Assembly (NCBI RefSeq): GCF_020176715.1
Contig: NZ_JAIVMF010000019.1
Coordinates: forward strand, 1 to 64,000
Direction of reading: 5' to 3'
DNA: 64,000 nucleotides
Origin: Stappia stellulata
Lineage (GTDB): Bacteria; Pseudomonadota; Alphaproteobacteria; Rhizobiales; Stappiaceae
The position numbers and the translations under genes are program-made. Under the pieces are notes generated by a model. It worked only from the letters and a program-made list of their open reading frames with translations. It was not told where the DNA came from and made no database searches. Numbering within the stretch: the first letter of the stretch is position 1; every line of letters starts with the position of its first letter. This document shows positions 31,258 through 33,880 of this stretch, piece after piece.

Positions 31258-32343
31258 ATGTCGCACAACACCTTCGGCCATCTTTTCCGCGTCACGACCT
31301 GGGGAGAAAGCCACGGGCCGGCGCTCGGCTGCGTCATCGACGGATGCCCGCCGCGCCTTGCCATCAGCGAAGCGGAGATCCAGGCGTTTCTCGACCGCCG
31401 CAAGCCGGGCCAGTCGCGCTTCACCACCCAGCGCAAGGAAGCGGACGCGGTGAAGATCCTCTCCGGCGTGATGGTCGACGAGGATGGCGAGACCCGCACC
31501 ACCGGCACCCCGATCTCGCTGATGATCGAGAACACCGACCAGCGCTCCAAGGACTACGGCGAGATCAAGGAGAGCTACCGCCCCGGACATGCCGACTACA
31601 CCTATGATGCCAAATATGGCATTCGCGACTATCGCGGCGGCGGCCGGTCCTCCGCGCGCGAGACCGCCGCACGGGTCGCCGCAGGCGCCATTGCGCGCAA
31701 GGTGATTGCCGGCATGCGGGTGCGCGGCGCGCTGGTGCAGATCGGGCCGCACAAGGTCGACCGCTCGCGCTGGGACTGGGACGAGATCGGCAACAATCCG
31801 TTCTTCTGCCCGGACGCAACGACGGCGGCCCGCTGGTCCGACTATCTCGACGCGATTCGCAAGGACGGCTCCTCCGTCGGTGCGGTGATCGAGGTGGTCG
31901 CCGACGGCGTTCCCGCCGGTCTCGGCGCGCCGCTCTACGGCAAGCTCGATCAGGATATCGCCAGCGCGCTGATGTCGATCAATGCGGTCAAGGGCGTGGA
32001 GATCGGCAACGGCTTCGAGGCGGCGGAACTCACCGGCGAGGCCAATGCCGACGAGATGCGCATCGGCGCGGATGGCCGGCCGCAGTTTCTGTCCAACAAT
32101 GCCGGCGGTGTGCTCGGCGGGATTTCCTCCGGCGAGCCGGTGGTCGCGCGTTTCGCGGTTAAGCCGACCTCGTCGATCCTGACGCCGCGCCGGTCCGTCA
32201 CACGGGGCGGAGAGGAGGTCGATGTGCGTACCAAGGGCCGTCACGACCCTTGCGTTGGCATTCGCGCCGTGCCGGTCGGCGAGGCGATGCTTGCCTGCGT
32301 GTTGGCCGACCACCTGCTGCGCCACCGCGGCCAGGTCGGCTAG
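31258..32343 (+). CDS. aroC: Chorismate synthase AroC
   Basis: A 361-residue enzyme that converts 5-enolpyruvylshikimate-3-phosphate to chorismate with reduced FMN as cofactor, the branch point of aromatic synthesis. Signatures are [63 protein letters not shown] (read as [12 protein letters not shown]), [19 protein letters not shown] (read as [11 protein letters not shown]) and [14 protein letters not shown]. Full length and intact. Directly followed by the flavin gene ribB after 79 bases, a functional pairing because AroC needs FMN. Confidence 0.97.
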
Positions 32344-32352
32344 GCTTCTTGA

Positions 32353-32371
32353 TTTTCAGTATTGCTGAAAA
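32353..32371. promoter_or_regulatory. Palindromic operator 1 before the HTH-RibB gene
   Basis: TTTTCAGTATTGCTGAAAA is a perfect inverted repeat with 7-base arms and a 5-base centre. It shares the core TTTCA-N7-TGAAA with the next palindrome. It starts 10 bases after the aroC stop codon. The neighbouring gene encodes an N-terminal HTH, making autoregulation the simplest reading. Confidence 0.6.
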
Positions 32372-32378
32372 AGTACCG

Positions 32379-32403
32379 CACCTTTCATTGCTACTGAAAG
32401 GTG
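32379..32403. promoter_or_regulatory. Palindromic operator 2 / leader hairpin before the HTH-RibB gene
   Basis: CACCTTTCA (32379-32387) and TGAAAGGTG (32395-32403) are perfect 9-base arms separated by 7 bases. The core TTTCA-N7-TGAAA repeats that of operator 1, 29 bp away centre to centre. In RNA the same sequence would form a 9-bp hairpin that ends about 20 bases before the ATG, close to the GGGGTAGGG ribosome-binding region. Confidence 0.6.
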
Positions 32404-32422
32404 TTTGGGGTAGGGTGTCGGC

Positions 32423-33742
32423 ATGCGTCTCGATGAATGGCTTGCCCAGTCCAAGGAAACCCGATCCGCCTTTGCGCGCCGTGCCGGCCTGTCGCCGGCG
32501 GCGGTGACGGCATTGTGCAACGATCCGGGCGTCTGGGTCTCGCGCGACAGTGCAGAGCGCATCGCCGCCGCCACGGGCGGCGCGGTAACCCCGAACGATC
32601 TTCTCGGCCTGAAAGGACCTGTGGCTTTGGATCTGTCCCAGCAACGTGTCGCGGAGGCCATCCGCGCATTCGAGCGCGGCGAGATGCTTGTCGTGACCGA
32701 CGATGACGACCGCGAGAACGAAGGCGACCTGATCGTCGCCGCCTCGCTTGTGAAGCCCGAGCAGATGGCCTTCATGGTGCGCCACACCTCCGGCATCGTC
32801 TGCGCGCCGATGACGCGCGAAACCGCCCGCCGGCTGCGTCTCGACCCGATGGTGGCCGACAATGACGCGCCGCTGTCGACCGCCTTCACGATTTCCGTCG
32901 ACTATCGCCACGGCCTGACCACCGGCATCTCGGCGGAGGAGCGCTGCTCCACCGTGCGCGCGCTGGCAAACTCCAATGCCGGTGCGGCGGATTTCGCCCG
33001 GCCGGGACACGTCTTCCCGCTGGTCGCCCGCGAGGGCGGGGTGCTGATGCGCTCCGGCCATACGGAAGCCGCCGTCGACCTGTGCCGGCTTGCCGGCCAG
33101 CCGGAAGTCGGCGTGATCTCCGAGCTCGTCAATGACGACGGTACGGTCAAGCGCGGCGCCGAGGTGGCGAATTTCGCCGCCGAGCACGGCCTCAAGATGG
33201 TTTCCGTCGCCGATCTCATCGCCTGGCGCCAGCGCATGGAGCGGCTGGTCGAGCGTGTCAGCGAGCAGCCGGTCGAAACCGTCGCCGGTCCGGCCTACGC
33301 GGTGACCTATTCCACGCCCTATGACCCGATGCATCACGTCGCCGTCGTCTATGGCGACATTCTCGACGGGCGCAATGTGCCGGTGCGGTTGCAGCTGGAA
33401 TCCGTGCTCGACGACGTCTTCGGCGAAACGCGGGTGCTCGACGACGTGCTGCGCGATTTCGCGGGCCGCGGTCGCGGCGTGGTCGTCTATCTGCGTGAGG
33501 GCTCGGTGGGCGTCGCGCGTCAGGCGCGGCGGGCGCGCAGCGATCTTGCGGCAGCCGAGCTCGAGGAGCACCAGTCGGCCCAGGCGCGCGAGGAACAGTG
33601 GCGCGAAATCGGACTGGGCGCGCAGATCCTCAAGGATCTCGGCGTCAACTCGATCACCCTTCTGGCCTCGCGCCAGCGCCACTATGTCGGACTGGAAGGC
33701 TTCGGCATCGCGATCGAGGGCACGGAAATCCGCGAAATTTGA
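32423..33742 (+). CDS. ribB: HTH - 3,4-dihydroxy-2-butanone-4-phosphate synthase (RibB) - degenerate GTP cyclohydrolase II fusion
   Basis: A 439-residue fusion. Residues 1-68 are an XRE/Cro-like HTH: FARRAGLSPAAVTALCNDPG, then SAERIAAATGGAVTPNDLLG. Residues about 72-275 are a complete RibB: DDDDRENEGDLIVAA (acidic metal site), GIVCAPM, TTGISAEERCSTVRAL, GHVFPLVAREGGVLMRSGHT and GVISELVNDDG. Residues about 280-439 align with GTP cyclohydrolase II but lack the zinc cysteines (the CDCG-like segment reads FGETRVLDDVL), so that activity is probably lost, as reported for some rhizobial RibBA proteins. RibB makes the four-carbon unit of riboflavin. Two palindromes lie just upstream. Confidence 0.9.
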   Translation: MRLDEWLAQSKETRSAFARRAGLSPAAVTALCNDPGVWVSRDSAERIAAATGGAVTPNDLLGLKGPVALDLSQQRVAEAIRAFERGEMLVVTDDDDRENEGDLIVAASLVKPEQMAFMVRHTSGIVCAPMTRETARRLRLDPMVADNDAPLSTAFTISVDYRHGLTTGISAEERCSTVRALANSNAGAADFARPGHVFPLVAREGGVLMRSGHTEAAVDLCRLAGQPEVGVISELVNDDGTVKRGAEVANFAAEHGLKMVSVADLIAWRQRMERLVERVSEQPVETVAGPAYAVTYSTPYDPMHHVAVVYGDILDGRNVPVRLQLESVLDDVFGETRVLDDVLRDFAGRGRGVVVYLREGSVGVARQARRARSDLAAAELEEHQSAQAREEQWREIGLGAQILKDLGVNSITLLASRQRHYVGLEGFGIAIEGTEIREI

Positions 33743-33751
33743 ACATCCGTT

Positions 33752-33880
33752 CAAAAAAAAGGCCGAGCGAAAGCTCGGCCTCAAGTCGATCACTGTGCAC
33801 GTGGCCCCATCGACCACAACCTCTGTTTAGTAGTTTTTGGCCTTCTGTGCATCACCTAAATGGGTGAGGTGGTCGAATTT
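33752..33880 (-). ncRNA. Candidate structured small RNA on the minus strand
   Basis: Evidence is structural only. On the minus strand GTGGTCGA's complement, TCGACCAC (33869-33876), can pair with GTGGTCGA (33810-33817), closing a domain that contains a CACC/GGTG hairpin (33861-33867 region). A second, competing stem joins ATCGA and TCGAT (33786-33790 with 33809-33813). The RNA would end at a perfect intrinsic terminator (33753-33781). No minus-strand protein gene lies upstream to explain that terminator. A TATAAA at 33883-33878 is promoter-like but too close to the stem, so the 5' end is uncertain. Confidence 0.35.
33753..33781 (-). terminator. Strong intrinsic terminator, minus-strand orientation
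   Basis: AGGCCGAGC and GCTCGGCCT form a perfect 9-bp stem with a 4-base loop (33760-33781). On the minus strand it is followed by eight T residues (33760-33753). On the plus strand there is no T run after the stem, so it would be poor as a ribB terminator. Confidence 0.75.

Follow-up and report, generated by a model that had tools for sequence, protein, structure and literature searches.

A helix-turn-helix domain fused to RibB in Stappia stellulata and its relatives: a predicted self-regulating enzyme of riboflavin biosynthesis

Introduction

Why should a complete riboflavin enzyme carry a DNA-binding domain, and what would that domain bind? The question is raised by an open reading frame (ORF) at 32423-33742 on the plus strand of a 64,000-nucleotide stretch of Stappia stellulata DNA (assembly GCF_020176715.1, contig NZ_JAIVMF010000019.1, positions 1 to 64,000), referred to below as the window. 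Its 439-aa product joins a helix-turn-helix (HTH) domain to RibB (3,4-dihydroxy-2-butanone-4-phosphate synthase), and its ATG lies 79 bases behind the stop codon, at 32343, of a gene that we take to be aroC. An earlier note on this DNA proposed that the enzyme binds operators of its own in this gap. The comparative sequence analysis described here makes it very likely that HTH-RibB is a bifunctional, self-regulating enzyme, and most likely an autorepressor. Genomes (G), loci (L), contigs (C) and families (f) are given by our own codes.

The fusion protein and its predicted operators

The Cro/C1-type HTH domain (residues 1-63; 32423..32611, plus strand) is matched by Pfam HTH_26 at residues 2-63, barely above the cut-off (22.5 against 22 bits), and by a profile of its own family at E 2e-39, the window sequence itself being included in that profile. 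By sequence profile, the nearest solved HTH structures are the phage Cro proteins 8co2 and 8c7k. The RibB domain (32654..33226, plus strand) is complete, since DHBP_synthase (PF00926) matches residues 78-268 with 277.8 bits over profile positions 2-191 of 191. It is the sole RibB that a search of this genome found. The earlier description of an HTH fused to a complete RibB is thus borne out by both Pfam matches.

Two palindromes lie in the gap, TTTTCAGTATTGCTGAAAA at 32353-32371 and CACCTTTCATTGCTACTGAAAGGTG at 32379-32403, and have TTTCA-N7-TGAAA in common. Within them two palindromic operators are predicted, each 17 bp long, with a 3-bp spacer between half-sites of 7 bp. The distal operator, O1 (TTTCAGTATTGCTGAAA, 32354..32370), is centred about 61 bp before the ATG, and the proximal operator, O2 (TTTCATTGCTACTGAAA, 32383..32399), is spaced about 29 bp from it. 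Read in one orientation, the two are TTTCAGTATTGCTGAAA and TTTCAGTAGCAATGAAA, a closer match than the earlier note had stated. Each scores 6 of 7 as an inverted repeat, and both are missed by a test for perfect repeats.

Promoter scoring placed a predicted -35 element (TTGCTA, 32388..32393, plus strand) inside O2 and, after a 17-bp spacer, a predicted -10 element (TAGGGT, 32411..32416, plus strand) that ends 6 bases before the ATG; a like layout is found in relatives. The claim that palindromes alone fill the 79-base gap is therefore to be corrected, as the promoter elements lie there too, while the two palindromes and their shared motif stand. Transcription is predicted to start at or next to the ATG. 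The ribB mRNA would then be leaderless, and would therefore have no room for an RNA switch. In 96 of 107 distinct upstream regions of HTH-RibB genes, the best-scoring sigma-70-like promoter stopped 12 to 3 bases short of the ATG, against 17 of 71 controls whose RibB lacks the HTH. A Shine-Dalgarno-like sequence was present in 1 of 108 against 20 of 71. The start codons of the controls are approximate, which blurs both comparisons.

In the 4,547,069-base Stappia genome, the strict operator pattern TTTCAGTNNNACTGAAA occurs nowhere at 0 mismatches and in two places at 1 mismatch, both of them in the aroC-ribB gap. Another three places have 2 mismatches, which is no more than chance would give, because a backwards control pattern itself scored 4 forward matches when up to 2 mismatches were allowed. 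A pair of 1-mismatch sites no more than 30 bases apart is beyond the chance level. Beyond the ribB gap no further good operator site was found in this genome, Stappia's own ribA and ribH loci hold none with fewer than 5 mismatches, and the regulon here is predicted to be ribB alone.

Conservation in close homologues

A contig scan gave 64 loci, 47 of them with the HTH, from Stappia, Roseibium/Labrenzia, Pannonibacter, Hongsoonwoonella, a Hyphomicrobiaceae metagenome-assembled genome and a few others. The operator is centred -64 to -58 from the ATG in 44 of these 47; the exceptions are L017, where it has moved to -52, L025 and L031. Sixteen of the 47 have aroC no more than 1600 bp upstream, two of them at a distance of about 800 bp. 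The operator is at its usual place in all 16 loci with aroC upstream and in 28 of 31 without it. It is thus kept although the upstream gene changes, which supports self-binding. O1 is the better conserved site in Stappiaceae.

These data also bear on the idea that the palindromes are RNA structures, either the terminator of aroC or an unrecognised riboswitch or attenuator. Inverted repeats behind a stop codon invite this reading, yet the predicted transcript begins at the ATG, leaving the repeats upstream of its start, and the repeats persist in homologues without aroC. The window has no Rfam match, and the flavin mononucleotide (FMN) riboswitch (RF00050) has 0 matches in the Stappia genome, in a search that was positive in 7 of 14 control genomes. 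The sequence retrieved around 20 HTH-RibB genes likewise held no FMN riboswitch, in agreement with the earlier view that none would fit upstream. In addition, a change of protein class brings a change of sequence in both half-sites, as described below. The terminator or riboswitch reading was rejected on the predicted start at the ATG, the Rfam and riboswitch negatives and the independence from aroC, and is exceedingly improbable.

Association of the operator with the HTH

A check suggested in the earlier note was whether homologues with the HTH share an upstream palindrome. The general motif TNAGYNNNRCTNA was found within 150 bp upstream of 94 of 109 distinct HTH-RibB genes and of 1 of 71 RibB genes without the HTH. 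A perfect 7-3-7 inverted repeat within 200 bp was seen for 57 of 109 genes with the HTH and for 2 of 71 without it, the latter two being GC-rich stems. Some species had been entered twice, and removal of duplicates with identical upstream regions reduced the HTH rows from 116 to 109 and the others from 74 to 71; the HTH-less set consists of a chosen part of the listed RibB places, loci of the contig scan and a few others. The start of one locus, L307, was set too far downstream in the motif, repeat and Mantel counts, and this locus was excluded from the promoter count; the operator given for it below was read with the start correctly placed. Site centres cluster at -62 to -60, -34 to -32 and -18 to -16 from the ATG, and the last two clusters fall on the predicted promoter.

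Across the order, a search with the HTH profile gave a match in 90 of 397 genomes, and HTH-RibB fusions were confirmed in 73 of 397, in families f1, f20, f23, f28, f35, f36, f42 and f50. This is a lower bound, as two more fusions (L307, L319) were found later by chance. When 80 genomes were searched for RibB, each of 72 HTH-RibB genomes had exactly one match. A class-wide draw of 385 genomes added HTH-RibB in two genomes of another order (f94). By hand count, the strict pattern TTTCAGTNNNACTGAAA occurs in 28 of 73 HTH-RibB genomes against 2 of 324 others; a looser operator pattern occurs in 57 of 397 genomes, made up of 37 of 73 and 20 of 324 respectively.

Changes of operator specificity

The operator sequence differs with the HTH, as in TTTCAGTnnnACTGAAA, TATTAGCnnnGCTAATA and GTTGCCAnnnTGGCAAC. 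In class B of family f23, where the HTH has diverged, the operator is TATTAGCnnnGCTAATA, and its centre falls between the -35 and -10 elements, some 17 bp ahead of the ATG. Nine of 11 class-B genomes have exactly one whole-genome match to TATTAGYNNNRCTAATA at up to 1 mismatch, in each case at 0 mismatches and before HTH-ribB. None of 8 other f23 genomes has a 0-mismatch class-B site, and one has a 1-mismatch site. Among these 8, G360 has a class-B-like HTH and TATTAATCATATTAATA upstream; it is also one of the two 'other' genomes that bear TTTCAGTNNNACTGAAA, its class-B-like HTH-RibB lying on another contig. The sites in f94 are AATTTTAGTTTAACTTAAAAAT and AATTTTAAGTTTGACTTAAAATC.

In G029 (L307), RibB is fused to an unrelated HTH (HTH_31, 50 bits) and comes with a perfect palindrome, GTTGCCAAAATGGCAAC, that overlaps a -35 element (TTGCCA); a -10-like TAGATC lies six bases before the ATG. 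This is probably a second origin of the HTH-RibB design. HTH distance and operator distance are correlated (r 0.70), also when RibB distance is given (partial Mantel r 0.69, 0 of 999 permutations as high). The test used the 55 of 62 loci whose repeat scores 6 of 7 or better, and its permutation ignores the tree. No simple residue code for the operator emerged: Gln versus Ala at alignment position 30 was tried and fails at L112.

These genomes encode many small HTH proteins, and binding by HTH-RibB itself is predicted from sequence; the palindromes might therefore serve a separate, free-standing regulator, with the HTH of RibB vestigial or structural. This is very improbable. Such a regulator would not account for a motif found in 94 of 109 upstream regions with the HTH and 1 of 71 without, for an operator that tracks the HTH beyond RibB relatedness, or for the unrelated HTH of G029 with its unrelated operator. 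The HTH is also strongly conserved, with 36 of 62 columns invariant in an alignment of 23 homologues. The earlier proposal that the enzyme binds its own operators is thus well supported by comparison: the motif follows the HTH, is kept when the upstream gene changes and tracks the HTH in sequence.

FMN riboswitches and a predicted second target

By hand count, 149 of 397 genomes have an FMN riboswitch, namely 15 of 73 with HTH-RibB and 134 of 324 others. Strict exclusion of the riboswitch by HTH-RibB at the genome level is ruled out by those 15 genomes, which have it elsewhere. The inspected riboswitches precede a transporter gene (six) or, by ORF reading, a lumazine-synthase-like gene (G041, G335, G294); for G198 the downstream gene was not resolved. 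For G271, G365, G388, G087 and G366, which also have an FMN riboswitch, none was found within the fetched stretches, which covered 400 to 1500 bases upstream of HTH-ribB. In family f23, G186 and G322 have a RibB without the HTH in a ribD-ribE-ribB run, identified by reading, behind an FMN riboswitch. Three other f23 genomes, G104, G264 and G280, have no RibB match and do have an FMN riboswitch, which by reading stands before a transporter-like ORF in G264 and G280; these are possible riboflavin auxotrophs beside the HTH-RibB relatives.

An order-wide pattern search led to seven operator sites away from ribB that were inspected in f1 genomes. In six cases (G116, G300, G353, G328, G286 and G341) the site is followed after 10-55 bp by an FMN riboswitch and then by a transporter-like gene, and Pfam, run on three of these six transporters, gave EamA. 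RibN is a transporter of this kind with an FMN riboswitch in alphaproteobacteria (PMC4418817). The operator therefore marks riboflavin genes beyond ribB, and operator control and riboswitch control seem from the sequences to be stacked at the RibN-like gene in six relatives. The seventh site, G328:C8:567212, is a perfect class-A operator at 2213-2229 of L214 and falls inside one predicted ORF.

Proposed mechanism

RibB is a dimer, and therefore two HTH domains are available for a two-fold symmetric site; together they would grip the 17-bp palindrome. In this genome, HTH-RibB would bind O2 across the -35 element and O1 about 29 bp upstream, and the leaderless ribB promoter would be shut when enough HTH-RibB is present, or when HTH-RibB is in one ligand state. 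The switch could respond to the amount of enzyme alone or to its ligand state, with FMN, riboflavin and ribulose-5-phosphate as candidate ligands. O1, at -61, might aid by cooperativity or might activate. This protein switch on ribB would stand where other bacteria use an FMN riboswitch, and in some relatives HTH-RibB would also act in trans on a RibN-like transporter gene that also bears such a riboswitch. Solved structures exist for RibB relatives; a structure model of HTH-RibB reached a mean pLDDT (predicted local distance difference test) of 73, too weak to position the HTH relative to the RibB dimer.

The computation shows the fusion, the operators and their tie to the HTH, the shifts in specificity, the overlap with the predicted promoter and the second site; from these we infer that the protein binds, that it does so as a dimer or cooperatively, and that it represses and does not activate. 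Repression is the simplest reading because the predicted promoter is overlapped by sites near -34 and -17 and its -35 element in the window is covered by O2. An alternative is that HTH-RibB is an activator at O1, or that it has a dual role, with activation through O1 when its level is low and repression through O2 when its level is high. Activators often act near -61, and the controller proteins of restriction-modification systems activate and repress through two operators. The window likewise has two sites 29 bp apart, of which O1 is the more conserved in Stappiaceae, and some Roseibium keep only O1. Against this, families with a single site have it over the predicted promoter, with centres near -34 or -17, as fits repression, and O2 of Stappia covers the -35 element. 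Activation or dual control is judged unlikely, and autorepression is preferred.

Several observations nevertheless weigh against autorepression by HTH-RibB through these operators. The centre of O1 near -61 makes activation or dual control possible, and in part of Roseibium (for example L014, L026 and L032) the proximal site is lost while O1 and the -35 element remain. The motif TNAGYNNNRCTNA is missing from 15 of 109 HTH-RibB upstream regions; hand inspection showed a proximal form, TTTCATTGnnACTGAA, with the left half-site merged with the -35 element, in 8 of these, and L135 and some others of the 15 are without a clear operator. L112 pairs a class-A operator with a class-B-like Gln in its HTH. 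In the class-B search at up to 1 mismatch, the backwards control gave more forward matches overall than the pattern itself (26 against 10 in 19 genomes), so weight was placed only on the 0-mismatch matches and their places. The site at G328:C8:567212 has no evident link to riboflavin. Finally, a quick RibB tree requires nine changes of the HTH label, of which well-supported branches force at least 4. Averaged over the independent pairs on such branches, the motif goes with the HTH in 3.6 of 4 and the perfect repeat in 2.6 of 4, each with 0.0 opposite, and four pairs are too few for a significant sign test.

Related HTH domains on other enzymes

Whether the design extends beyond RibB is evenly balanced. 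In the general form, a compact Cro-like HTH would have been grafted repeatedly in alphaproteobacteria on the N terminus of metabolic enzymes (RibB, CoaBC, the glutamine-synthetase family, ATCase-like proteins, SucA and MeaB), grafts bringing a palindromic operator of their own at the promoter and often a leaderless gene, and the enzyme would signal directly to its gene how much of it is present or occupied, with no need for a separate regulator or a riboswitch.

A related HTH is found on CoaBC-like proteins in 7 of 8 matches in f32 (L137, L138, L140, L141, L143, L144 and L148), the eighth, in G311, being a short ORF. They were recognised as CoaBC-like by Pfam for L137 (DFP and Flavoprotein domains) and by the shared GGIAAYK motif for the others. 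Of the upstream repeats of these genes (ATTACATTTCATGTAAT, ATTACATATAATGTAAT), two are perfect and another two reach 6 of 7; the remaining three genes have a weak repeat or none. In the two perfect cases, L143 and L144, the palindrome is ATTACATnnnATGTAAT and stands immediately ahead of the start codon; the scores of 6 of 7 belong to L140 and L141.

Class-wide, similar N-terminal HTH domains were seen, with Pfam confirmation, on MeaB, SucA, glutamine-synthetase-family, ATCase/OTCase-like and nitrate-reductase-delta-like proteins (L247, L248, L252, L255, L259, L261, L262 and L268). The palindrome upstream is 6 of 7 for the MeaB fusion and partial, 5 of 7, for the ATCase-like fusion, and no convincing palindrome was found upstream of the SucA, glutamine-synthetase-family and nitrate-reductase-delta-like fusions. 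L252 has TTAACCAAAACGGTTAA just before the start. A 181-aa HTH protein encoded at 1501-2043 of L260 has a perfect palindrome, GTACCCAAAATGGGTAC, just upstream.

Remaining features of the locus

Behind the RibB domain lies a RibA-like C-terminal domain (33251..33721, plus strand), which Pfam matches as GTP_cyclohydro2 at residues 277-433 with 102.9 bits. It is RibX-like and without the RibA zinc motif. That motif, C-x10-C-x-C, is absent from all 116 HTH-RibB rows and present in 5 of 74 RibB rows without the HTH and in Stappia's separate RibA. This GTP cyclohydrolase II and lumazine synthase are encoded on other contigs of the genome. The idea that the RibA-like C-terminus serves as the ligand sensor found no specific support; a like domain occurs in RibB relatives without the HTH, and it is not favoured as the sensor because it is not specific to the HTH-bearing proteins. 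Upstream, outside the system, the neighbouring ORF at 31258..32343 on the plus strand is presumably aroC (chorismate synthase), as it is named in the earlier note. Downstream of ribB, an A run followed by a hairpin (GGCCGAGC-GAAA-GCTCGGCC) at 33753-33780 of the window reads as an intrinsic terminator of the minus strand and not of the plus strand.

Comparison with known systems

Discussion of bacterial ribB control usually centres on the FMN riboswitch; here at least 73 of 397 sampled genomes of one order appear to use the enzyme as the switch. The fusions form a natural set for HTH and operator co-evolution, with protein and site adjacent and several specificities, and they predict that an essential vitamin gene may be tuned through the HTH. 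They also point to a class of enzyme-regulators that would be overlooked when proteins are annotated by enzyme name alone.

The E. coli ribB gene is reportedly controlled by an FMN riboswitch. The Stappia gene would resemble it in feedback control of ribB expression; in contrast to the RNA switch in the E. coli leader, the mRNA here is predicted to lack a leader, and the search of this genome gave no riboswitch. The RibBX and RibBA families likewise have a RibB domain followed by a RibA-like domain. HTH-RibB differs from them in its HTH, which was found in 0 of the 74 rows of RibB relatives, and from bifunctional RibBA in the absent zinc motif and the separate RibA.

Regulators joined to vitamin enzymes occur in archaea, where ThiR is said to be fused to thiamine phosphate synthase; HTH-RibB is alike in its regulator on a vitamin enzyme and unlike in vitamin, enzyme and domain of life. 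RbkR is fused to riboflavin kinase in archaea. RbkR is described as a regulator linked to a riboflavin operon (PMC10746257). A different enzyme carries the HTH here, Pfam and NCBIfam found no riboflavin kinase domain in HTH-RibB, and the like idea was reached separately.

BirA, NadR, PutA and PepA of E. coli are trigger enzymes, metabolic enzymes whose DNA-binding function regulates genes (PMC8249747). HTH-RibB appears to share this character, with a complete catalytic domain and a DNA-binding domain in the same chain and, on comparative evidence, a cognate operator. None of those four is a riboflavin enzyme, whereas here the HTH is on RibB and the only target predicted in this genome is its own promoter. 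No description of an HTH-RibB fusion was found in the open-licence literature searched. Enzyme-regulators as such are already known, and what appears to be new is the placing of an HTH on RibB.
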